A DNA stretch of 64,000 nt from Methanolobus psychrotolerans (GTDB lineage Archaea > Halobacteriota > Methanosarcinia > Methanosarcinales > Methanosarcinaceae), in contig NZ_MBKP01000009.1 of NCBI RefSeq assembly GCF_002243045.1, forward strand, positions 1-64,000. Direction: 5' to 3'. Within the stretch, counting starts at the first letter, position 1. Each line of letters opens with the position of its first letter. The translations under genes were made by a program, and so were the position numbers. The notes under the pieces were generated by a model. It was not told where the DNA came from, did no database searches, and saw only the letters and a program-made list of their open reading frames with translations. Shown here piece after piece: positions 26,811 through 48,715 of this stretch.

Positions 26811-26979
26811 CCGGCAGTATCCGTTTATCACCGGATGCAGATATATTACAGTGGATTCAAAACCCGGATCTACAGGATTTTACATCAGATATGGATTTAA
26901 GATCGTTAAAAGATCTATTAAGAAAGACTACACGTCCCTGTAGCTGAACATGCATCCGATAATAGAGGGCCTTGAATAG
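26811..26979 (+). pseudogene. Deleted copy of the antitoxin-GNAT toxin pair
   Basis: This is a decayed duplicate of the pair at 30428-31100. The tail of the antitoxin gene (CCGGCAGTATCCGTTT) is joined directly to the last 50 codons of the GNAT gene (from ITGCRYITVDSKP), removing about 370 bp. The reading frame then meets TAG at 26941 where the intact copy has TAT (Tyr). The remaining sequence is about 93 percent identical by eye. It cannot make a toxin. Confidence 0.85.
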
Positions 26980-26984
26980 ATCTT

Positions 26985-27190
26985 CCCATACAACAAAGCC
27001 CAATTATCGTACATGTACAGCAGTGAGCATTAGTGGGAGGTCCGCTTTTGCGGGGAGAATGGATGGCATCCTTTGTATCCGTGCAGGAACGATCAATGCC
27101 AGGACCAGCCTTTCCAGGACGGCATCTTTGCGTTAGATCCGGAAGTGAGAATTTTGTTCTTTTTATGGGAGTGGAATGTGCTGCCCGCTG
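26985..27190 (+). repeat. Direct repeat downstream of GNAT copies
   Basis: This segment (from ACAACAAAGCCCAATTATCG to GAGTGGAATGTGCTGCC) recurs downstream of the intact GNAT gene at 31120-31340. The later copy has one extra block of about 30 bp (AGATATCGCTTAAATGC...). It shows the duplication included the 3' flank. No function is seen. The start of a similar tail is also found at 35265. Confidence 0.8.
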
Positions 27191-27300
27191 CTGTATGGTT
27201 GTTTTGTTCTTAGACCTGAACGCTTTTTACTTTTGATAAGCCAACTTTCGGGATTCCCTTCAAGAAACTTAATAAGAATTGTCACCAATAGATATGTGAG

Positions 27301-27606
27301 ATGAAATGTGATAGTATGGCTGAGAAGCAGATCGATGAGTACAGAGGACGAATTGTTCCAATACTGCTGAAAAACGGTGTGGATAAAGCTGGCATCTTTG
27401 GCTCGTTTGCAAGGAACGAGGCAGGTGTGGAAAGTGACATCGATGTTCTTGTTCGCTTTAAGGGCAGGAAAAGTCTCTTTGATCTTGCAAGGCTTGATCT
27501 TGAGCTAGAGAAGGAAGCCTGAAGAAAGGTTGAGGTCATAACTTATGATTCCATTAGTCCTCTTATCAGGGAGCGGGTCCTCAAAGAAAAGATGAGGATA
27601 CTATGA
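27301..27606 (+). pseudogene. MNT-type (MntA-like) antitoxin with premature TGA
   Basis: A minimal nucleotidyltransferase with the motif GSFARNEAGVESDIDVLV (GSx10DxD), the antitoxin half of HepT/MntA pairs. MntA enzymes AMPylate the HEPN partner. The frame is broken by TGA at 27520-27522 after EKEA. Reading on in the same frame gives RKVEVITYDSISPLIRERVL, the expected C-terminus, with Gly expected at the TGA (GGA to TGA needs one change). The full frame ends at 27606 and overlaps the HEPN start. The 73-aa product that could still be made lacks the last third. Confidence 0.8.
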
Positions 27607-27659
27607 AGGATCCTGGAGTCTTTATCAGGGACCATTATCTGGTCATAGGTGTTAAATAC
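27603..27659 (+). pseudogene. HEPN toxin remnant (first ~11 codons)
   Basis: It starts with ATG overlapping the MNT stop (ATGA), as in the intact cassettes, and reads MKDPGVFIRDH before diverging and stopping at TAA 27651-27659 region. The rest of the HEPN gene is lost. What follows (GTTAAATACTAAAGGAGTAAGCTCAAT) matches the upstream region of the MNT gene at 29383, so a recombination joined two cassettes. Confidence 0.6.
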
Positions 27660-27679
27660 TAAAGGAGTAAGCTCAATAA

Positions 27680-27775
27680 ATGGAGAAGTTATCGATGGCC
27701 GGAAAAGAGAAAAACCTTACTGGGATTGACAACATAAGATTCCTGATCAAGGAGCACAGGGATGAGATCAGATAG
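27680..27775 (+). pseudogene. N-terminal fragment of a second MNT gene
   Basis: Thirty-one codons ending IDNIRFLIKEHRDEIR then TAG. The segment is nearly identical to the start of the MNT gene at 29383 (MDNIRLLIKEHRDEISQLF). It ends at the point where it is fused to the following, different MNT gene, whose ATG at 27762 lies inside this fragment in another frame. Confidence 0.7.
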
Positions 27776-28121
27776 TTGTTATGAGAAGTTCAATGAAATT
27801 CGCGATACATTCGATCTGGTAGAGGCCCTTGGCCTTTCCAGGGACATAGGAGAGGAGCTTCTGGATATTTGCAGACAGAATGATATCGCTTCTCTTGGGC
27901 TGTTTGGCTCTTATTCGAGAGGTCAGCAAAGCCAGGATAGTGACCTTGATCTTTTGGTCACGTTCTCAAAAGGAAAGAGTCTTATTGATCATATAAGGAC
28001 CGAGAAAGCCTTTGAAAACCTGCTTGGGATAAAAGTGGACCTTGTAACTGAAAGATCATTGAGCCACCATCTTGCCCCGGCTATTAAAAAGGATATAAAG
28101 AGGCTGTATCATGAAAGATGA
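27762..28121 (+). CDS. MNT-type nucleotidyltransferase antitoxin
   Basis: A 119-aa minimal nucleotidyltransferase with GLFGSYSRGQQSQDSDLDLL (GSx10DxD catalytic motif). It is the MntA-like antitoxin for the HEPN gene that starts inside its last codons (overlap 28111-28121). The first ten codons (MRSDSCYEKF) are partly derived from the fused remnant upstream; the native start may have been lost, and the ribosome site for ATG 27762 is poor. The core is intact. Confidence 0.85.
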   Translation: MRSDSCYEKFNEIRDTFDLVEALGLSRDIGEELLDICRQNDIASLGLFGSYSRGQQSQDSDLDLLVTFSKGKSLIDHIRTEKAFENLLGIKVDLVTERSLSHHLAPAIKKDIKRLYHER

Positions 28122-28440
28122 TGTTTTTTTCCTGGAGCATATACTTGATGCAGTGAATCAGATAGGAGAATACACCAATATATCGTATGATGAATTCCTT
28201 GAAACACGACTTATACAGGATGCGGTTGTCAGACAGCTTGAAATAATCGGTGAGGCTACAAAGAACCTTTCCGGGATCACGACAGAACGCTGTCCGCATG
28301 TTCCCTGGAAAGAAATTGCAGGAATGAGGGATAAGCTGATACATGCTTATTTTGGTGTTGATCTTGATGAAGTCTGGAACACTGCAAAAAAAGACATCCC
28401 ATATCTAAAGGAAGCTGTCGAGGGGCTTCTGACAAAATAA
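28111..28440 (+). CDS. HEPN-domain (HepT-like) toxin
   Basis: A 109-aa helical HEPN protein carrying RDKLIHAYFG, the Rx4HxY RNase motif of HepT toxins. In known systems the Tyr is AMPylated by the MNT partner to neutralise it. It overlaps the MNT gene by 11 bp, which implies translational coupling. No truncation is seen. It is followed after 13 bp by a YgiT-type gene. Confidence 0.88.
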   Translation: MKDDVFFLEHILDAVNQIGEYTNISYDEFLETRLIQDAVVRQLEIIGEATKNLSGITTERCPHVPWKEIAGMRDKLIHAYFGVDLDEVWNTAKKDIPYLKEAVEGLLTK

Positions 28441-28453
28441 GGATTGATAAATA

Positions 28454-28717
28454 ATGATCCCGGATAGATGTGGTTTTTGCAAAGGTAAACTTGTTGACGG
28501 AAAGCATGAGTTCGTTGTGAAGGTAGGTGAAACCATGCTTGCCATCAAAGATGTTGATGCCTTTGTCTGCCAGGAATGCGCAGAAGCATATTACACACCG
28601 CAAACATCCAGACGCATGGACAAGGTTATGCAAAAGTTTTACAGATCATCTTTGCGTGTCCATCCGCTTGCTGCAGGGGAAATCAGCCTTAGCGAGATAG
28701 AGGCTGAAAACTGCTGA
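28454..28717 (+). CDS. YgiT-type zinc finger protein (MqsA-like antitoxin domain)
   Basis: An 87-aa protein with a CGFCKGKL...CQECAEAYY double CxxC zinc site, followed by YTPQTSRRMDKVMQKFY, typical of the YgiT-type family often paired with a DUF4258 toxin. No DUF4258 gene is adjacent; upstream is a complete HEPN pair. It may therefore be an orphan antitoxin. A truncated copy lies at 33172. Confidence 0.8.
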   Translation: MIPDRCGFCKGKLVDGKHEFVVKVGETMLAIKDVDAFVCQECAEAYYTPQTSRRMDKVMQKFYRSSLRVHPLAAGEISLSEIEAENC

Positions 28718-28738
28718 TCTTATTCTGAAATGAACCGC

Positions 28739-28940
28739 AGATACACTCACCTCTTACAGAGTTGAGTGCCTGCTAAACATCCGTTTAGCAGGTAACGCAG
28801 ATGCACGCAGATATTATTTATTCTCATCTGTGTCTATCGTTGGTCAGGTGAACATTCGCATCTCTACAAAAGCAACATATTTTGATGATGGAACACACCA
28901 CCTGCCAGCGAACCTTTGTCCTCCCCCCTATTCCCCTCCC
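28739..28940 (+). repeat. Hairpin repeat unit with nested 50-nt element and tail
   Basis: The unit begins CCGCAGATA and is interrupted by the 50-nt element (28744-28793), then continues ACGCAGATGCACGCAGAT and an incomplete right arm. A tail with TGGTCAGGTGAACATTCGCA and CACCACCTGCC follows, shared with copies at 31528, 33955 and 35630. The rest, to 29143, is C-rich or AT-rich sequence with no gene seen. Confidence 0.75.
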
Positions 28941-29143
28941 ATCCATCACCTGCCCATCACAAGTTCCCTGACCTCACAGGAAGGTCCCCTTCTTAACAGC
29001 TAAGCCTACAATACCCCTGCATCAGAACTCCCGTTCCCTTTAGTGGGTAGTTCACAACTTAAATGATATTGAACTCAAGAAGGTCTGATTTCCTTTTAAA
29101 ACGGGAAAATCTTTAATGTATAGAATTACTATATAAGCTAAAT

Positions 29144-29287
29144 ATAGCGACAATAACTCTGTCTGTCCAGGATGATCTGATCAAAGAGATGAGCAGATAT
29201 AAGGACATAAACTGGTCTGAGGTTGCAAGAGAAGCTATCAGAATAGATCCTACAAGATATAAAACGCTACGTAACGACTTTGCATGA
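29144..29287 (+). pseudogene. RHH (VapB-like) antitoxin fragment lacking a normal start
   Basis: Forty-seven codons reading ATITLSVQDDLIKEMSRYKD and then INWSEVAREAIR, a ribbon-helix-helix antitoxin N-terminus. The expected start codon is ATA instead of ATG, and no in-frame ATG, GTG or TTG precedes it before a stop. The C-terminal half is replaced by unrelated sequence. No VapC/PIN gene follows. Treated as a relic; use of an AUA start cannot be excluded. Confidence 0.65.
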
Positions 29288-29382
29288 TACTACAGAGCAC
29301 ACATCATGTTATCTTTTCTTTCCGCGGGAGTTAAATACTAAAGAAGTTAGCTCAATTAAAAGAGATATTAATAGGTGAAAAT

Positions 29383-29685
29383 ATGACTAAATATGTTAAA
29401 ATGGACAACATCAGGCTCCTGATCAAAGAGCACAGGGATGAGATCAGTCAGTTGTTCAATGCAGAGATAGTTGGTATTTTCGGTTCTTATGCCAGGGGTG
29501 AAGAGAAGATCAACAGTGATGTTGACTTACTTGTAAATTTTAATGAGGATGCTACACTTTTTGACCTTGTTGGACTTGGTGACTATCTGGAAGAGCGGAT
29601 TGGGCTTCCAGTGGACGTTGTTTCAATGAGAGCTTTGCATCCAATGATGAAGAATGAAGTTCTAAAAGAGATGGTAACTATATGA
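29383..29685 (+). CDS. MNT-type nucleotidyltransferase antitoxin
   Basis: A 100-aa MntA-like protein with GIFGSYARGEEKINSDVDLL (GSx10DxD) and the usual C-terminal LPVDVVSMRALHPMM. AGGTG at 29373-29377 is its ribosome site. It overlaps the HEPN gene by 4 bp (ATGA). A fragment of a near-identical gene lies at 27680. Confidence 0.9.
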   Translation: MTKYVKMDNIRLLIKEHRDEISQLFNAEIVGIFGSYARGEEKINSDVDLLVNFNEDATLFDLVGLGDYLEERIGLPVDVVSMRALHPMMKNEVLKEMVTI

Positions 29686-30053
29686 GATTACCGTCGCTGT
29701 ACATTTCAGAGATAATTAGTGCCATTGACTCCATAGATAATTTTACTTCAGGTATGAACAAAGATGGTTTTCTGGATGATGAGAAAACAAAAAGTGCTGT
29801 TGTACGACAGTTTGAGATAATGGGAGAAGCCAGTAAAGCTTTACCAAAGAGCATTAAAGAACTTGCACCGGACATTCCCTGGAGCAATATTGCAGGAATG
29901 AGGGACCGACTTATACACGCTTATTTTGTTGTAGATTATAATCTTGTGTGGAAGACATTGGAAGAAGAATTGCCTGGACTTAAAGAAAGACTTGAAAGAC
30001 TTGAAAGACTTGAAATGCTTCAGATCGATGCTATAAAAGATGAGAAACTCTGA
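29682..30053 (+). CDS. HEPN-domain (HepT-like) toxin
   Basis: A 123-aa helical toxin with RDRLIHAYFVVD (Rx4HxY). It overlaps the MNT stop. The C-terminus carries ERLERLERLE, encoded by a 9-bp unit (GAAAGACTT) repeated about three to four times, so its tail can lengthen or shorten by slippage. Otherwise it is intact. Confidence 0.88.
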   Translation: MRLPSLYISEIISAIDSIDNFTSGMNKDGFLDDEKTKSAVVRQFEIMGEASKALPKSIKELAPDIPWSNIAGMRDRLIHAYFVVDYNLVWKTLEEELPGLKERLERLERLEMLQIDAIKDEKL

Positions 30054-30427
30054 AGGACAAACATTATCCCTTGACTAAAGTTTTGTTGCTAGAACTTGAT
30101 CCATGAGCAGATCGTAGAATACATAATCTTGAGGTTTGTTTCTATTTCTTACCACTACTCAGCAGCATGGCAATGTACCGCCTGCGCCGGTGTGGTTTGG
30201 TTGCGTTGTTATCAGACCTATAAAAGAGTATGCACCAGATCTCATCAGACCGACCAGCGGACCCTTAGATAAGCGATACAAGGGTCCTGGATGTGTGAAT
30301 GGGGACTGTCATACATACATCGTGAATAGTTCTCATGGTAAATTATATACCCACGTAAGAACAATATCTCACGTATGTCAATATTATTGACAACACAATT
30401 GAAGTCATATTAAAGGTGAAAAAGATA
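30054..30427 (+). promoter_or_regulatory. Regulatory region of the antitoxin-GNAT pair
   Basis: Part of this gap (30170-30290) is a copy of the dispersed tail repeat (GACCGACCAGCGGACCC). Closer to the gene, AATTATATAC (30341-30350) is a good TATA box. A perfect 15-bp palindrome GTCAATATTATTGAC (30377-30391) lies at the expected start of transcription, 37 bp before the antitoxin ATG. That position is typical of autoregulated toxin-antitoxin operators. Confidence 0.6.
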
Positions 30428-30571
30428 ATGGCAAAACCTATTGAACTGGGACTTGTGCTGGAAGGTGAAGATGCAAAAGAGTTCTGGGATAATGAGAAAA
30501 AGCCAGCTACCAGGCAACAGGTAGAAATGTTCAAAAAAGCCAGGAAAATATCCGATAGTATCCGTTTTTAG
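30428..30571 (+). CDS. 47-aa antitoxin of the GNAT toxin
   Basis: This is too short for the ORF track. It reads MAKPIELGLVLEGEDAKEFW and ends ARKISDSIRF, with GGTG nine bases upstream of ATG. It sits 13 bp before the GNAT gene, the layout of GNAT toxin operons (antitoxin first). It lacks an obvious RHH or HTH but is small and charged. Its C-terminal tail survives in the deleted copy at 26811, showing that both genes were duplicated together. Confidence 0.7.
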   Translation: MAKPIELGLVLEGEDAKEFWDNEKKPATRQQVEMFKKARKISDSIRF

Positions 30572-30584
30572 TCCCGGCATCGAT

Positions 30585-31100
30585 ATGTCTGAATCTGATC
30601 TTTCTATTTCTGCGCTTTCTAAGAGAGACGATGTTTTGCTTTTTTGCTGCAATAACGATGATTTGAATGATTTTTTAAAAAATGATGCTCTGAGCAATCA
30701 GGAACAACTCATAAGTAAAACCTATGTTTGTTATTATCGGGGACACTTTGCAGGATACTTTACCCTGACCACAGATACTATAAAAGTTAGATCCGTTGAT
30801 GATTCTGACTGTGTTGATGATTTCCCATATTCCCGTTATCCGGCTGTAAAACTCGCAAGGCTTGCCACTGACAAAAGATTTGAAAGAAAAGGTATTGGCT
30901 CGCATATGTTGTTTGCAGCAATAGGTCTTGCCCAAAGGGTAGCTGACATCACCGGATGCAGATATATTACAGTGGATTCAAAGCCCGAATCTACAGGATT
31001 TTACATAATATACGGATTTAAGATCGTTAAAAGATCTATTAAGAAAGACTACACGTCCCTGTATCTGAACATGCAACCGATAATAGAGGACCTTGAATAG
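30585..31100 (+). CDS. GNAT-family acetyltransferase toxin
   Basis: A 171-aa GCN5-type acetyltransferase. The acetyl-CoA loop RKGIGSHML follows ARLATDKRFE, and the end YITVDSKPESTGFYIIYGF is typical of TacT/AtaT-like toxins that acetylate aminoacyl-tRNA. Its target here is not known. It is preceded by a short antitoxin gene and a palindromic operator. A deleted duplicate lies 4 kb upstream. Confidence 0.82.
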   Translation: MSESDLSISALSKRDDVLLFCCNNDDLNDFLKNDALSNQEQLISKTYVCYYRGHFAGYFTLTTDTIKVRSVDDSDCVDDFPYSRYPAVKLARLATDKRFERKGIGSHMLFAAIGLAQRVADITGCRYITVDSKPESTGFYIIYGFKIVKRSIKKDYTSLYLNMQPIIEDLE

Positions 31101-31690
31101 ATCCCCCGCCCATACAACAAAGCCCAATTATCGTACATGCACAGCGGTGAGCGTTAGTGGGGTTCGCTTTTGCGGGGAGAATGGATGGCATCCTTTGTAT
31201 CCGTGCAGGAACGATCAATGCCAGGACCAGCCTTTCCAGGACGGCATCTTTGCGTTATATCCGGAAGATATCGCTTAAATGCTGGAAAGTTTCCGGAAGT
31301 GAGAATTTTGTTCTTTTTATGGGAGTGGAATGTGCTGCCTGCTTCCTAAACGGATACTTTTGTACAAAGAACTACGAGTATGCCTGTGTTATCTGCTAAA
31401 CGACTGTTTAGCAGGCACTCAACTCCGTAGGAGGTGAGTGTATCCGTGTTCATCTGTGGTTTCTTTCAAAATATGAACCGCAGATAAACGCAGATACACG
31501 CAGATATTGCTTCTTGTCGTCCGTGTCTGTCGATGGTCAGGTGACCATTCGCATCTCTGCAAGATGAACATATATTCATGATGAACCGCACCGCCTGCGG
31601 CGGGGTGGTTGCATTGTTATAAGATCCACCAAAGAGCATGCAACAAATCTCAGCAGACCGACCAGCGGACCCCGTCTTATAGTGATCCAC
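31101..31690 (+). repeat. Repeat block: GNAT 3' flank, 50-nt element, hairpin unit, tail
   Basis: No gene is seen. In order it holds the direct repeat also found at 26985, a segment shared with 35265-35330 (ACTTTTGTACAAAGAACTACG), the 50-nt element in reverse orientation (31391-31440), part of a hairpin unit, and the tail repeat with GGTCAGGTGACC, a GCCGCCTGCGGCGG palindrome-like core and GACCGACCAGCGGACCC. ORFs listed here are artefacts of the repeats. Confidence 0.75.
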
Positions 31691-31691
31691 A

Positions 31692-31858
31692 GCTTAAAAC
31701 AGACAGATCAGCATCATTATCCCCTCAATATATATAACACCGCAAATTATTCTTGCGAGATTTTCACAAAACTTAAATATGTTCCCTGAGTTTAGTTTAC
31801 CCAACGAAGTATAATTATACAGGCATACGATCTGCCTGCTGTGTTGGGTGAATGAAAA
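31692..31858 (+). promoter_or_regulatory. Promoter and structured leader, copy 1
   Basis: This segment matches 36107-36275 at about 80 percent. TATA-like boxes occur at ATATATATAAC (about 31729) and AAAACTTAAATATG (about 31769). The leader that would follow folds: outer stem ACCCAAC (31799-31805) with GTTGGGT (31843-31849), inner hairpin GTATA-AT-TATAC (31809-31820), and hairpin CAGGCA (31820-31825) with TGCCTG (31833-31838). Compared with copy 2, stems P1 and P2 keep pairing through changes on both sides. It ends at the start codon of the truncated epimerase. Confidence 0.65.
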
Positions 31859-32035
31859 ATGGTGGTAGTGAGCAGTCTTTCTGATCTTAGGATTCTGGTT
31901 ACAGGTGGCGCCGGCTTCATCGGCAGTCACGTAGTTGACAGGCTTGTAAAGTCAGGTAACAAAGTTACCGTTTTTGACAACCTCAGCTTCGGCAGGATGG
32001 ATTTCATAGCCCATCATCATAATAATTCTTATTAA
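31859..32035 (+). pseudogene. Truncated NAD-dependent nucleotide-sugar epimerase
   Basis: Fifty-eight codons give the Rossmann start of a GalE-like epimerase/dehydratase: [20 protein letters not shown], then [14 protein letters not shown]. The frame breaks after IAHHHNN and stops at TAA 32033. The remaining 250 or so residues, including the YxxxK catalytic site, are gone. What follows is a UPF0175-like gene. It is driven by the duplicated leader and may mark the end of a deleted sugar-nucleotide gene block. Confidence 0.85.
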
Positions 32036-32040
32036 TATCT

Positions 32041-32262
32041 ATGGATGTAACTGAGCACTATCTGATCGAGGAGTACTCAAATGGCAGAATAAGTAAGGGA
32101 AAAGCTGCCAAGATGCTGGATATCAGTATTTATGAGATCAACGACCTGTTCGAAAAACATCGTGTTAAAGATAGTATTAGCTATGAGAACTTTATCAAAG
32201 GCATGGAAATTGCTGAGAAATACAGCAAGTATGGTCCTGATAAAGAGAAAAAGAAAGAATGA
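32041..32262 (+). CDS. UPF0175-like HTH antitoxin candidate
   Basis: A 73-aa protein with the pattern YLIEEYSNGRISKGKAAKML and DISIYEINDLFEKHRV, the helix-turn-helix of UPF0175, a family found as antitoxin of PIN toxins. It ends in a Lys-rich tail (KEKKKE). It is at the edge of a decayed epimerase, and no PIN toxin gene follows. The start at ATG 32041 may be truncated relative to family members. Confidence 0.65.
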   Translation: MDVTEHYLIEEYSNGRISKGKAAKMLDISIYEINDLFEKHRVKDSISYENFIKGMEIAEKYSKYGPDKEKKKE

Positions 32263-32324
32263 TCATGTTAGTTTTAAGCGTGATGCATGACTCTTTTATA
32301 AGTCAATGCAGGCAGAGGGAGATG

Positions 32325-32685
32325 TCAGATCTGATTCTCCAGTTCGTCCAATAGATCCCGTATCATAGGCTTTGCTTCCGGGATGCCTTCCTTTACGCTG
32401 AGCCAGACAACTTCAAGGTTTACACCAAAATATCCATGGATCAGCTTGTTCCGAATGCCTGCCAGATCTTTCCAGGGAATTGAAGGGTAATTTTGCCTTA
32501 TATCCTCAGGGACTTTCTTTGCTGCTTCACCAATTATCTCCAGGGCCCGTATCACGGCGTATTGAGTCTTGATATCTTTTAGGAAATCCTCAAAAGTACA
32601 GCCATAGACAAAGTTCTCTGCTGCATCCATGGCATTGCAGATGTCCTGTACATAGTCCCTTATATCCCGAATGCTAATCCCTCAT
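32325..32685 (-). pseudogene. HEPN toxin gene with a one-base frameshift near its start
   Basis: The body is a standard HEPN toxin with IRNKLIHGYFGVN (Rx4HxY). In other cassettes the HEPN ATG overlaps the MNT stop (ATGA). Here that ATG (32685) is followed by AGG GAT TAG and stops. Removing one G from the GGG run (32679-32681) restores MRISIRDIRDYVQ and runs into the rest of the gene. So an extra base silences the normal start. Translation from ATG 32630 (101 aa) or from the in-frame ATT remains possible but would lack the first helix or need a rare start. Confidence 0.7.
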
Positions 32686-32984
32686 ATGGCTTCAACTTCC
32701 TTAAGTATGTATTTTCCGATATTTGGTTTCAGTGCATCTTTCATGACAAGATCCACTTTGATCCCCAGATAATCGGAAAGGTAGTTCTCCAGATGAACGA
32801 ATCTGAAAATAGTAGGAGTTTTGCTAAACTCCACCAGCACATCAAGATCACTTTCCGTAGTGTGATCTCCCCTTATATAGGACCCAAATAATCCTATGTA
32901 ACTTACATTATATTGCTCTTTCAACTCCGGCAGCATTTCGCGGAGTTTGGTTCTGTATAGTTCAACATCTCTATTATCTGGCAT
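32682..32984 (-). CDS. MNT-type nucleotidyltransferase antitoxin
   Basis: A 100-aa MntA-like protein with GLFGSYIRGDHTTESDLDVL (GSx10DxD) and C-terminal KPNIGKYILKEVEAI. It is the antitoxin partner of the frameshifted HEPN gene directly downstream. It is intact; its ribosome site is weak. The pair faces the opposite way from the others in this region. Confidence 0.88.
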   Translation of the reverse strand: MPDNRDVELYRTKLREMLPELKEQYNVSYIGLFGSYIRGDHTTESDLDVLVEFSKTPTIFRFVHLENYLSDYLGIKVDLVMKDALKPNIGKYILKEVEAI

Positions 32985-33115
32985 ATTGATCTTAGAAGGG
33001 ACTTTCTAAGTTAATGTTAGTTTTATTGATATAAGTTGTTTGTCCTTTGCTGGAAAAGGCACAGATATTCAATAGACGGCCAAAGGGCTTAGGAGAGATG
33101 ATAGTGTATTAAGCT

Positions 33116-33155
33116 CATCACTTCAGTGATGGGATTTTCGAAGTTTTTTTTAAAT
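33116..33155 (+). terminator. Hairpin with T-tract
   Basis: CATCAC-TTCA-GTGATG (33116-33131) forms a perfect 6-bp stem, followed by GGATTTTCGAAG and a run of eight T. It looks like a terminator on the plus strand, but no plus-strand gene ends nearby, so it may have been carried in with the relic of a lost gene. Confidence 0.4.
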
Positions 33156-33171
33156 CTAGCTCGTTGATAAG

Positions 33172-33306
33172 GAATGCGCAGAAGCATACTATACCCCGCA
33201 GACTTCCGGACGCATAGACAAGGTTATGCAAAAGTTTTACAGATCATCTTTGCCTGTCCATCCGCTTGCTGCAGGGGAAGTCAGCCTTAGCGAGACAGAG
33301 GCTTAA
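33172..33306 (+). pseudogene. C-terminal fragment of YgiT-type gene
   Basis: Forty-four codons (ECAEAYYTPQTSGRIDKVMQ onward) match the end of the gene at 28454-28717 with several substitutions and a different stop. Its N-terminus with the first CxxC is missing. The similarity continues past the stop into the hairpin repeat and 50-nt element, so a block of at least 200 bp was duplicated. Confidence 0.8.
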
Positions 33307-33333
33307 GAAATGCTGGTCTTATTCTGAAATGAA

Positions 33334-34035
33334 CCGCAGATACACTCACCTCTTACAGAGTTGAGTGCCTGCTAAACATCCGTTTAGCAGGTCACGCAGA
33401 TGCACGCAGATTTTTGTTTATTCTCATCCGTGTTTATCCGTGTTCATCTGTGGTTTTATTTCACATTGGACCGCAGATAAACGCAGATGCACACAGATAT
33501 TGTTTATTCTCATCTGTGTTTATCTGTGTTCATCTGTGGTTTTAATTAATAGCGAACCGCAGATAAACGCAGATGCACGCATATATTGATTCTTGTCGTC
33601 CGTGTTTATCTGTGTTCATCTGTGGTTTTAATTAATAGCGAACCGCAGATAAACGCAGATGCACACAGATATTATTTATTCTCATCTGCGTTAATCTGTG
33701 TTCATCTGTGGTTTTAGTCAATAGCGAACCGCAGATACACGCAGATGCACGCAGATATTGGTTAGTCTCATCTGCGTTAATCTGTGTTCATCTGTGGTTT
33801 TATTTCACATTGGACCGCAGATAAACGCAGATGCACGCAGATTTTTGTTTATTCTCATCCGTGTTTATCCGTGTTCATCTGTGGTTTCTTTCAAAATATG
33901 AACCGCAGATAAACGCAGATGCACGCATATATTGATTCTTGTCGTCCGTGTCTATCGATGGTCAGGTGACCATTCGGTTCTCTATAAAATTAACATATAT
34001 TCATGATGGACCGCGCCGCCTGCGGTGAAGTGAGT
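33334..34035 (+). repeat. Array of palindromic 86-bp repeats (plus orientation)
   Basis: At least six units begin with CCGCAGATA(A/C)ACGCAG at 33471, 33557, 33643, 33729, 33815 and 33903, spaced 86 bp (last 88). A first unit at 33335 carries the 50-nt element (33343-33392). Each unit is a hairpin: a left arm of three GCAGAT boxes 10 bp apart, a loop of about 13 nt (ATTGTTTATTCTC), a right arm of three ATCTG boxes, then TTTTAATTAATAGCGAA. The array ends in the tail repeat (GGTCAGGTGACC). It is not a CRISPR array. The stretch to 34253 contains nothing recognisable. Confidence 0.9.
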
Positions 34036-34253
34036 GGACTGTTCCAGGCCTAAATACTTTTTATTTGTTTCCTTTTGTGCGACCACACAAAAGAATTAAC
34101 TCAGCTGGCGACAACTGAAATGCATCACTGGGGATAGAACTTAAAACAGTTAGTTAGTTCTTTGTTACTTGATATAATTATTTTAAAACCAGGTTTATGC
34201 TCATCTTCTTAGGAATTACTTCAAGGGAGTAATGATGGCGATATAACGTGTTT

Positions 34254-34865
34254 CTAATTGAACAGGTTCCAGAAATAGTTTGCTGCATATCCTGCCAGGA
34301 AGGAGAGGAGAATAGTTAAGGCGTTTTCTTTGAGCCAATAACCTGTTCTGAATTTCTGTATATTGCAGGCTTTGTTAGTGTCAATATATCCGAGAAGCCT
34401 TTTTCCTATACGAATGGTTTCTTTGTAGGCTTCAACTGCATCAAAAGGAGAATTACCTACTGATCTCATTTCGATGTTCCTGGCATCCTGAGCCTTTGTT
34501 TTGAAGTCTTCGAATTCCTTGATGAATACATGTTCAGGAACATTTATAAAAAACTCAAGGTCCCTGTCATCAGAAACAAGGTCCAATTCCTTTTTCATTT
34601 CTACCCATAAGAGCTTATATGAATCCAGGGTTGCCCTTGTCAGATGGTTCTTTGCCTTTTGAAGGTTCTCAAGACGCTTTTCATCCGGGTAATCCGGATT
34701 ATATATGTGAGAGACATGGGCAAGAGTATTGTCCAATTCATTTGTTATCTGAACAGGTTTGTTCCCTATGTATCCTACAAGGTCAGCATAAGCGGGTACA
34801 AAGACATCTCTGTATATCTCGAATATCTCTTCAACTGAACTGTTATCCACTACCACAATGATCAC
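34254..34865 (-). CDS. Hypothetical helical protein with C-terminal membrane anchor
   Basis: A 203-aa protein that is mostly helical and charged, with one hydrophobic segment at the very end (LTILLSFLAGYAANYFW), so it is probably tail-anchored with its body in the cytoplasm. Start is GTG 34865, overlapping the stop of the gene upstream (GTGA), so the two are translationally coupled. I do not recognise either. The pairing of a small protein with a tail-anchored partner inside a toxin-antitoxin island suggests a toxin-antitoxin or phage-defence pair, which is inference only. Confidence 0.6.
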   Translation of the reverse strand: MIIVVVDNSSVEEIFEIYRDVFVPAYADLVGYIGNKPVQITNELDNTLAHVSHIYNPDYPDEKRLENLQKAKNHLTRATLDSYKLLWVEMKKELDLVSDDRDLEFFINVPEHVFIKEFEDFKTKAQDARNIEMRSVGNSPFDAVEAYKETIRIGKRLLGYIDTNKACNIQKFRTGYWLKENALTILLSFLAGYAANYFWNLFN

Positions 34866-35086
34866 TTTTTAAGAGCTTTTTCAAAAACAGTGTCGATGTC
34901 TATATCCGTTCTCGGAAAGACACAACCCTGTATAGTGACTATATTCTGCTCAAGTGATACGATCTTCAACTCGTCCTTTCCCAGCCTTTTCGCTACAAAA
35001 CTGTCGACATCTTCTGTGGTGGAGAAATCACTGATCTTGACATTGAACTTATCTTCAAAAAGGACAGTATCGGCTTTTAAGGACAT
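34862..35086 (-). CDS. Small hypothetical protein, first gene of an unknown two-gene cassette
   Basis: Seventy-four residues, MSLKADTVLFEDKFNVKISD to the end, with alternating hydrophobic/charged residues and one Cys. ATG 35086 has GGAG eight bases upstream, better than the track start at 35131. It overlaps the tail-anchored gene by 4 bp. No family recognised; it could be the antidote or sensor of the pair. Confidence 0.6.
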   Translation of the reverse strand: MSLKADTVLFEDKFNVKISDFSTTEDVDSFVAKRLGKDELKIVSLEQNIVTIQGCVFPRTDIDIDTVFEKALKK

Positions 35087-35264
35087 GTTTTTTCTCCACT
35101 CTATAATACAGGAATATAAAGGAATGAACAATATATAACTTTTTCCAGATGACGACTTTTAAAACAAAAGAGTGGATTTTAGTTGAGATCATGCTTCGTG
35201 ATGGTATTGTCATGCAATTACAATTAAATTTACAATAGATTTTTATTATTTTATCAGAAGTTAT

Positions 35265-35800
35265 GGAATGCGCCGCCTGCCTCCGGAACGGATGCTTTTG
35301 TACAAAGAACTACGGGTATGCCTGTGTTATCTTCTAAGTTGAGCAGGCACTCAACTCCGTAGGAAGTGAGTGTATCCGTGTTCATCTGTGGTTTTAATTA
35401 ATAACGAACCGCAGATAAACGCAGATGCACACAGATATTGTTTATTCTAATCTGCGTTAATCTGTGTTCATCTGTGGTTTTAGTTTATAGCGAACCGCAG
35501 ATAAACGCAGATGCACACAGATATTGTTTATTCTAATCTGTGTTTATCCGTGTTCATCTGTGGTTTTAGTTAATAACGAACCGCAGATACACGCAGATGC
35601 ACACAGATATTGTTTATTCTCATCTATGTCTATCGATGGTCAGGTGACCATTCGGATCTCTACAAAATTAACATATATTGATGATGGAACGCACCACCTG
35701 CCACCGATATGTTTACGCCATTATCAAACCCACCAAAGAGCATGCACCAGATCTCACCAGACCGACCAGCGGACCCCTGGACAAGCGACACAAAAGCCCG
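35265..35800 (+). repeat. Repeat block with 50-nt element, three hairpin units and tail
   Basis: It opens with a copy of the 31325-31390 segment (CTTTTGTACAAAGAACTACG). A damaged 50-nt element follows (35329-35371), then hairpin units starting near 35408, 35494 and 35580 (86-bp spacing), and the tail repeat with GGTCAGGTGACC and GACCGACCAGCGGACCCC. The sequence to 36106 is C- and A-rich with no gene seen. ORFs here translate the repeat and are not real. Confidence 0.8.
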
Positions 35801-36106
35801 GGTATAGATAGAGCTGCTTCTCAGAACAACCCGTTATTCTTCCAGAAGAACTTTTTTTCGCAACCCCTTTCAAACTCCTCCAAAACACCGGGATAAAGCG
35901 CCGGACACCTGGCTTCTTCCAGTGTTATACAAAATATCATCACCCATGAGATAAATACACCCCAACGCCCTCAACAGTCTCAATAAACACACAACCTCCC
36001 CCATCAGACAGTACTGTCGATCCTGCTGACAGATCCTGCTAATATCCAGGGATATATCCTTTTTCTCCTCTCCGCCCGGACCGACCCCCAGCTTTTAGCA
36101 ATCCAG

Positions 36107-36333
36107 GCTTAAAACAGACAAATTACCACCATTATCCCCACCATTTATATATAACGCCGCAAATTATTCTTGCACTATTTTCACAAAACTTAAATATGTT
36201 CAATGAATCTAATGTACCCATTGAAGTACAAATGTACAGGCATACGATGTGCCTGCTGTGATGGGTGATTGAAAAATGGTGGTATCAGACAGATCATATT
36301 TTACTCATGTTTTCTTTCTGAGCTGGTAATATC
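36107..36333 (+). promoter_or_regulatory. Promoter and structured leader, copy 2, before wzx
   Basis: Duplicate of 31692-31867, matching up to 36284. TATA-like boxes: TTTATATATAAC (36144) and AAAACTTAAATATG (36186). The leader folds the same way: ACCCATT (36216-36222) with GATGGGT (36260-36266), GTACA-AA-TGTAC (36226-36237), and CAGGCA (36237-36242) with TGCCTG (36250-36255). It continues through AAAATGGTGGTA, which is a start codon in copy 1, then about 50 bp of unique sequence to the flippase ATG. Confidence 0.65.
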
Positions 36334-44811: not shown

Positions 44812-45475
44812 GAATGAACATCTGCGTTCATCTGCGTTTATCAGCGGCTCACTATTAAAACTAAAACCACAGATGAACACAGATAAACACAGATGAGAAT
44901 AAACGATATCTGCGTTCATCTGCGTTTATCTGCGGTCCACTATTAACTAAAACCACAGATGAACACGGATAAACACAGATGATAATAACCAATATCTGCG
45001 TTTATCTGCGGTTCACTATTAACTAAAACCACAGATGAACACGGATAAACACAGATGATAAAAGCCAATATCTGCGTTTATCTGCGTTTATCAGCGGCTC
45101 GCTATCAAAACTAAAACCACAGATGAACACGGATAAACACAGATGATAATAACCAATATCTGCGTTCATCTGCGTTTATCTGCGGCTCACTATTAACTAA
45201 AACCGCAGATGAACACGGATAAACACAGATGATAATAACCAATATCTGCGTTCATCTGCGTTTATCTGCGGTCCACTATTAACTAAAACCACAGATGAAC
45301 ACAGATAAACACAGATGAGAATAAACGATATCTGCGTTCATCTGCGTTTATCTGCGGTTCACTATTAACTAAAACCGCAGATGAACACGGATAAACACAG
45401 ATGATAATAACCAATATCTGCGTGCATCTGTGTTTATCAGCGGTTCGCTATTGACAAAAACCACAGATGAACACG
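44812..45475 (-). repeat. Array of palindromic 86-bp repeats (minus orientation)
   Basis: Eight units of the family seen at 33334, in reverse orientation. ACC(A/G)CAGATGAACAC begins near 44867, 44953, 45029, 45117, 45203, 45289, 45375 and 45461. Spacing is 86 bp, except one 76 (lost one 10-bp box) and one 88. Loops read GATAATAACCAA or GAGAATAAACGA. No gene is inside. Confidence 0.9.
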
Positions 45476-45761
45476 AATACAAAACAACCACCCGCCGCAG
45501 GCGGCACCTTCCATCATCACTGAATAAAGTCAAACTTTATTGTCATAACAATAATTGTATACACAATAATACTTAACACTTACCAGAACAGATCCACAAC
45601 ATCCACCATAGTAACTCAGACCCACAACCAACCCACAGCAGGATGCACCTTCCATCGTCAACAAACAACATACTCCGCGACAAAAACAACGATCAGCGCA
45701 AATACAAAGATCAGCGCGGATACAAAAACAAGAGCCACAACCACCCGATCCCGGACAACCA
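45476..45761. repeat. Dispersed repeat flank of the AlbA_2 gene
   Basis: It holds CCGCCGCAGGCGGC (hairpin core), an ATTGT-ATAC-ACAAT dyad near 45553, and GATCAGCGCGGATACAA sequence. The same order recurs at 48380-48715, partly at 47510-47640 and 50100-50290. It extends into the last codons of the AlbA_2 gene, so these copies derive from its 3' end. Confidence 0.7.
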
Positions 45762-48029: not shown

Positions 48030-48209
48030 TCAGGCGAGGATCTCTTCTGCACGGGCGCCGGGCTGGGGGCGAAAGGAAACATGACCACATTCACAGGCTC
48101 CTGCAGAAAAGACACGATACTTGCCGCAATAGGTACCTCCGCCGCTGCTGGTGCAGGTAAGGGCTGAAGAGCTGGCATGTTCACACTTGTCATAGTATTT
48201 ACACTTCAT
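48030..48209 (-). CDS. Small cysteine-rich protein, copy 2
   Basis: Fifty-nine residues, too short for the ORF track. It starts with the same CKYYDKCEHASSSALTCTSS and YCGKYR block as copy 1 and has a different tail (ACECGHVSF, adding CxC). Promoter, ribosome site (GGGGGAATATC) and upstream 100 bp are nearly identical to copy 1. Conservation of the coding block and its promoter, against a free tail, supports that this is a real gene family of unknown function. Confidence 0.65.
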   Translation of the reverse strand: MKCKYYDKCEHASSSALTCTSSGGGTYCGKYRVFSAGACECGHVSFRPQPGARAEEILA

Positions 48210-48715
48210 GATATTCCCCCTATATATTTACATTATTAGTACTCAAATATATATTTTTGGAATTATAATTGTGCAACGTGTAGCAGATCGGCGTTGGTGG
48301 TATAGAATGAACATCTGCGTGCATCTGCGTTTATCAGCGGTTCGCTATTGACAAAAACCACAGATGAACACGGATACAAAACAACCACCCGCCGCAGGAT
48401 GCACCTTCCATCATCACTGAATAAATTCATACTTTATTGCCATAACAATAATTGTGTACACAATAATGTTTAAAAATACCGGAACAGATCCACAACCTGC
48501 ACCGTGCCATCATCAAGATCTTTAACACAACCCAGAAATAATCACAGAACTAAAACAACCACCCGCCGCAGGATGCACCTTCCATTGTCAACAAGCAACA
48601 TACACCCGCGACCAACCCAAAGATCAGCGCGGATACAAGACCAACAGCCACAAACACCTGATCCCCGACAACCATCACTTGATCTCAATTTCCATTTGCT
48701 TTAAAAGATCAAAGA
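48085..48715. repeat. Segmental duplicate of 44590-45790
   Basis: The segment runs Cys-rich gene 5' part, promoter, a single hairpin unit (48310-48375), the CCGCCGCAGG flank, and the last codons of the AlbA_2 gene up to AAAAGATCAAAG, where it ends abruptly. In the parent segment the hairpin array has eight units and the AlbA_2 gene is complete. No gene is seen from 48210 to 48812. Confidence 0.8.

Follow-up and report, generated by a model that had tools for sequence, protein, structure and literature searches.

Type II toxin-antitoxin (TA) modules such as VapBC, HicAB and HEPN-MNT consist of two small, co-oriented, adjacent genes with the small gene first, and they are sporadic and mobile. 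Classic type II toxins are soluble. Membrane toxins are known from types I and V (Hok, TisB and GhoT), where they are short peptides made up largely of a membrane helix. The all-helical HEPN ribonuclease superfamily has the catalytic signature Rx4-6H, with N, D or H following the R (Anantharaman et al. 2013, PMC3710099). A 2009 survey of TA systems left out pairs with a membrane partner because none were known (PMC2701414). Since surveys set aside membrane-protein pairs, they could systematically have overlooked a conserved pair such as this one. Archaeal defence is also under-described (PMC12988326).

The pair of genes described here resembles the type II modules in all of the above features of organization and distribution and is found in the same islands. 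It differs from them in that it has no detectable homology to a known toxin or antitoxin and in that the putative toxin is a membrane tail-anchored protein. A membrane-located effector, as is proposed here, is shared with Hok, TisB and GhoT; unlike these, it would be a tail-anchored bundle of about 200 aa that is paired with another protein. The pair is located in a 64,000 nt stretch of DNA from Methanolobus psychrotolerans (contig NZ_MBKP01000009.1, positions 1–64,000), which is the whole stretch analysed and is termed the window. A sequence-only reading of the window had placed two genes, for proteins of 74 and 203 aa, at positions 34254–35086. Both are real and both are on the minus strand, which that reading had not stated. 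The features of the locus are as follows.

35086 (ATG) to 34862 (TGA), minus strand: small partner gene (putative antitoxin), 74 aa; an open reading frame with an upstream Shine-Dalgarno and TATA-like element, and with homologues.
34254–34865, minus strand: large partner gene (putative tail-anchored effector); all-helical protein with a C-terminal hydrophobic tail.
34860–34865, minus strand: GTGATC, a Shine-Dalgarno-like site that overlaps the stop codon of the small gene.
34257–34322, minus strand: coding region of the C-terminal hydrophobic helix (about residues 176–197 of the model), from the model and hydropathy.
35094–35097, minus strand: GGAG, Shine-Dalgarno of the small gene, seven bases 5' of the ATG, read from the sequence.
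35130–35138, minus strand: archaeal-type TATA-box-like element TTATATATT, approximately 45 bases upstream of the small gene, also read from the sequence.
33170–34043, no strand assigned: left spacer, with an array of repeats of 86-nt period and a boundary sequence; in part a paralogue of the spacer at 28572–28911.
35264–36284, no strand assigned: right spacer, with a repeat array and boundary sequence; in part a paralogue of the spacer at 31326–31867.

The large protein is 203 aa if translation starts at GTG 34865, the start chosen in the sequence-only reading, and 198 aa if it starts at the in-frame GTG 34850. The latter appears the likelier start, because the GTGATC at 34865–34860 complements the anti-Shine-Dalgarno sequence at the 3' end of archaeal 16S rRNA, and because homologues start there. 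The GTGA junction through which the two genes were said to overlap is present in the sequence (GTG 34865 with the TGA of the small gene), but it is probably not where the large gene begins. Rfam shows no RNA element at the 34254–35086 locus.

In a comparison with 100 relatives, five genomes other than that of the window encode the large protein, and all five have the small protein adjacent to it. In other genera the large protein has homologues that are 38–47% identical, and every one of these adjoins a small gene. Three further matches to the small protein among the 100 relatives, with E values of 0.03–0.1, were set aside as noise. Profile searches detect the large protein in 14 of 186 genomes of the order and in 26 of 394 genomes of the phylum; within the window's genus it is present in one genome of 27. 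The small protein, when searched alone, is found in 14 of the 394 genomes of the phylum. Its loci adjoin a large gene or a remnant of one except in genomes G418, where the contig ends, and G491, which has a true orphan.

The large proteins represent two clades. Clade A, the window's branch, is marked by the sequence PAYSDLVGYIGDKPxQ..ELENTLAH and is partnered by a small protein termed small A. Clade B proteins are about 215–250 aa, carry NE[ILFV][KR][NDH]A[FY][DN]H and are homologous to the clade A large proteins (hhalign probability 97%, E 7e-11). Their small partner (small B) differs from small A and shows the pattern RYRxGSVRLAxGxVYTxEE...KPLP. Homology of small A and small B was rejected for now at an hhalign probability of 9%; all that the two have in common is a short G-[SNC]-V patch, perhaps by chance. 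Local matches of only 26 residues, in three apparent relatives from Erythrobacter, were likewise rejected.

The partner is directly upstream of the large gene at 24 clade A loci (the window and 23 others) and at 14 clade B loci, a total of 38, with junctions that are mostly -4 to 24 nt. Thus the order seen in the window, small partner first and tail-anchored partner second, is the same at 38 loci, and the genes are adjacent, co-directional and inherited as a pair, as in type II TA modules. The exceptions to pairing are few and explained: loci L028 and L030 are at contig ends, L050 is a C-terminal remnant, L057 is a marginal match to a 332-aa protein, and L049 is divergent. The sequence-only reading was to be given up if homologues of either gene occurred mostly without the other; the two co-occur as neighbours in other genomes, which does not refute it. 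Because of the 38–47% identity of the paired homologues and the 38 paired loci, the genes are real far above chance, and the pair is a conserved two-gene unit across many archaea. That the two frames are spurious or decaying, in a repeat-rich region whose surrounding spacers are repeats with many meaningless open reading frames, has a negligible probability. This explanation is refuted since the protein sequence and gene order are conserved in dozens of genomes, and a confident structural model was obtained from 28 homologues.

At L049/L082 (genome G217), the frame upstream of the divergent large protein has 71 codons (MLITRDGNVIKGPRFEKMIQTLIH); it looks unrelated to the other small proteins and may represent a third partner family.

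Genus g4 has two lineages of the module that are 40–41% identical to each other, and one of these is 73–76% identical to proteins of other families; therefore the module moves horizontally. One genome has two copies with 34% identity. Divergence of the small protein tracks that of the large one (Spearman 0.73, n = 16, none of 5000 permutations as high); this is compatible with binding between the two, and shared descent by itself is a sufficient cause. As judged from alignment coverage, a broken large gene accompanies an intact small gene at nine clade A loci, and one locus shows the reverse; this excess is not significant given lengths of approximately 203 and 74 codons (binomial about 0.2), and it was retained as weak support. 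Assembly errors may contribute to the counts. The distribution is sporadic, in regions that, taken descriptively, are mobile or TA-rich. A descriptive listing of the neighbours in other genomes includes PIN/VapB, HicAB, ParE-like, DUF433 and nucleotidyltransferase genes, and at L108 a type I restriction S subunit adjoins the pair. Some loci are situated by eye among housekeeping-like genes (cobalamin, ribosomal-protein and others).

These contexts bear on an alternative in which the two proteins are the subunits of a membrane complex, the small one obligatory, whose role is accessory and non-toxic. Stress sensing, membrane or envelope maintenance and regulation of a neighbouring system are examples of such a role. 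Obligate complexes of any kind are compatible with strict pairing and co-divergence, some of the loci are in housekeeping contexts, and matches to toxin families are absent. However, the pair is sporadic, mobile, often decayed and often near TA or restriction genes, which is unusual for a maintenance function, and the alternative is considered somewhat unlikely.

The orphan small A gene of G491 (L096/L100) has no large gene beside it; the TA island in which it lies contains genes that by eye are MNT-HEPN and HicA/HicB-like.

The window locus is also in a TA island and between repeats, as had been noted from the sequence. The region at 27.3–33 kb encodes three HepT-like proteins, three nucleotidyltransferase-domain proteins that Pfam confirms, a GNAT acetyltransferase and a protein with a weak resemblance to UPF0175. 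The spacers that flank the module are partial copies of spacers between other TA cassettes. A 41-base boundary sequence has two copies in the whole 3.16-Mb genome, one on either side of the module, and the core of the repeat of 86-nt period, ACCGCAGATAAACGCAGATGCA, has 14 of its 15 genomic copies inside the window. Therefore the module is one cassette of a repeat-bounded TA array, which looks to have been built by recombination or duplication.

Across the island (26827–36284) there are paralogous spacer blocks between cassettes, e.g., 26827–27145 and 30948–31267; further pairs are 28572–28838 with 33170–33438 and 31326–31867 with 35264–36284. The modules of the island are arranged as if gained or shuffled by recombination between spacers. 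The repeat of 86-nt period is present as arrays and single copies at 33343–33962, 35281–35728, 44817–45486 and 48100–48383. At 28454–28717 is a gene for an 87-aa protein with paired CxxC motifs, which adjoins an MNT-HEPN pair; by eye it resembles an MqsA/YgiT antitoxin, and it has no Pfam match.

An AlphaFold2 model of the large protein, made with 28 homologues, is all-helical, with a pLDDT of 94.8 and a pTM of 0.82. Foldseek comparison of this model gives no match below E 0.1 in the PDB (best E 0.35) or in BFVD (best E 0.15), and a search of the PDB by sequence finds nothing beyond de novo helical proteins and noise. The window protein has a C-terminal segment of only weak hydrophobicity (Kyte-Doolittle 19-mer maximum 1.16). 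Intact homologues, with few exceptions, end or nearly end in a hydrophobic helix, for which the 19-mer values are 1.7–2.7. A helical protein with one C-terminal membrane segment had been proposed from the sequence; the model gives a helical fold and the tail is clear in homologues, but the tail of the window protein itself is weak. Y20, H44, H68, R71 and Y141 are nearly invariant, and Q33, E37 and N40 are conserved in addition in the window's subgroup. The spacing of positions 33, 37, 40 and 44 in helix 2 and of 61, 64, 68, 71 and 75 in helix 3 would put each set on one face of its helix.

Searches of Pfam, NCBIfam and PADLOC with both proteins and their homologues show nothing above noise. 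In PADLOC-DB 2.0.0 there is at most weak noise, with a best E of about 0.005. This family is described in none of the libraries and literature searched, and the fold of the model is matched in neither the PDB nor BFVD; the statement that neither protein is recognised holds.

A resemblance to the HEPN superfamily is found in clade B. Its proteins are all-helical, and close to a helix end they carry the HEPN-like signature [RK][NDH]x3H, in which the R or K precedes H44 by five residues and has N, D or H directly after it. Unlike HEPN proteins, all clade A sequences, including that of the window, have D or E in place of the R or K, with the H retained, and the HEPN motif is not found in them. The Foldseek matches listed for the model of the window protein include no HEPN protein, and an hhalign comparison of clade B with the HepT proteins of the window is negative (probability 0.2%). 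Neither the fold of the window-protein model nor profile searches point to HEPN. Membership of the window protein in HEPN was therefore rejected, given the acidic residue at the R position and the absence of a profile match. On the basis of its sequence the window protein is not a canonical HEPN ribonuclease, because D or E replaces R or K in its branch. The signature in clade B may serve as a lead, and is not taken as membership because there is no fold or profile link to HEPN.

The small protein modelled alone is poorly ordered (pLDDT 63.7). Such a value would be expected of a partner that folds on binding, and equally of a shallow alignment. In 19 small A and 7 small B proteins there is no Pfam domain, and the model is poor; a DNA-binding domain, which is common but not universal among type II antitoxins, is not recognised in the small protein.

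The gene order, strict pairing, mobility, decay of the large gene and neighbourhood support by association a TA or abortive-infection function. Points against it are the lack of a recognised DNA-binding domain in the small protein, the weak tail of the window protein, the solubility of classic type II toxins, the non-significance of the excess of broken large genes and the housekeeping contexts of some loci. On balance the chances appear even that the pair represents a previously undescribed family of type II-like TA (or abortive-infection) modules, with the small protein as candidate antitoxin and the large protein as candidate tail-anchored effector. Both genes would be co-transcribed from the promoter before the small gene. 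The large protein would insert its C-terminal helix, an anchor predicted from hydropathy, in the cell membrane. Its cytosolic part would be the helical bundle of the AlphaFold2 model, in which conserved polar residues (E37, H44, H68 and R71) form a stripe between helices 2 and 3. The small protein, probably partly disordered alone, would fold on the bundle and hold it inactive. Loss of the small protein, whether by degradation, shut-off of expression or infection, may free the effector, and growth would be stopped at the membrane. The least certain step is how this would occur: the Gly-rich tail may mediate oligomerization, and in the distant branch a HEPN-like activity may act as well or instead.

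A broader proposal, which is held tentatively, is that the pairs represent a new TA or abortive-infection superfamily. It would have a tail-anchored helical-bundle effector, at least two unrelated small antitoxins, members in many archaeal families and in phages, and an HEPN-like R/K that has become acidic in the window's branch. Predictions that can be tested directly follow from the change of motif, from the strictness of the pairing and from the existence of two small partners that differ. Plasmids and phages searched by tblastn gave no match. At L115 (4497–5756), a phage-like contig ends in a clade B pair that follows a tail-like gene; therefore the family probably extends beyond archaea. 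The small protein of this pair has RGSVRLATGRFYT..KPLP and the large protein has ELRNALEH.

The small protein may instead sense infection, or be itself a viral target, and activate rather than restrain the effector. This antiviral sensor-effector pair is rather improbable. The phage-like contig of the L115 copy, the type I restriction gene beside L108 and a truncated small gene at L062 are consistent with it, but the defence libraries hold no match to the pair. The truncated small A gene (L062, 4998–5147) has no large partner and is on a virus-like contig, which also has helicase and thymidylate synthase-like genes.
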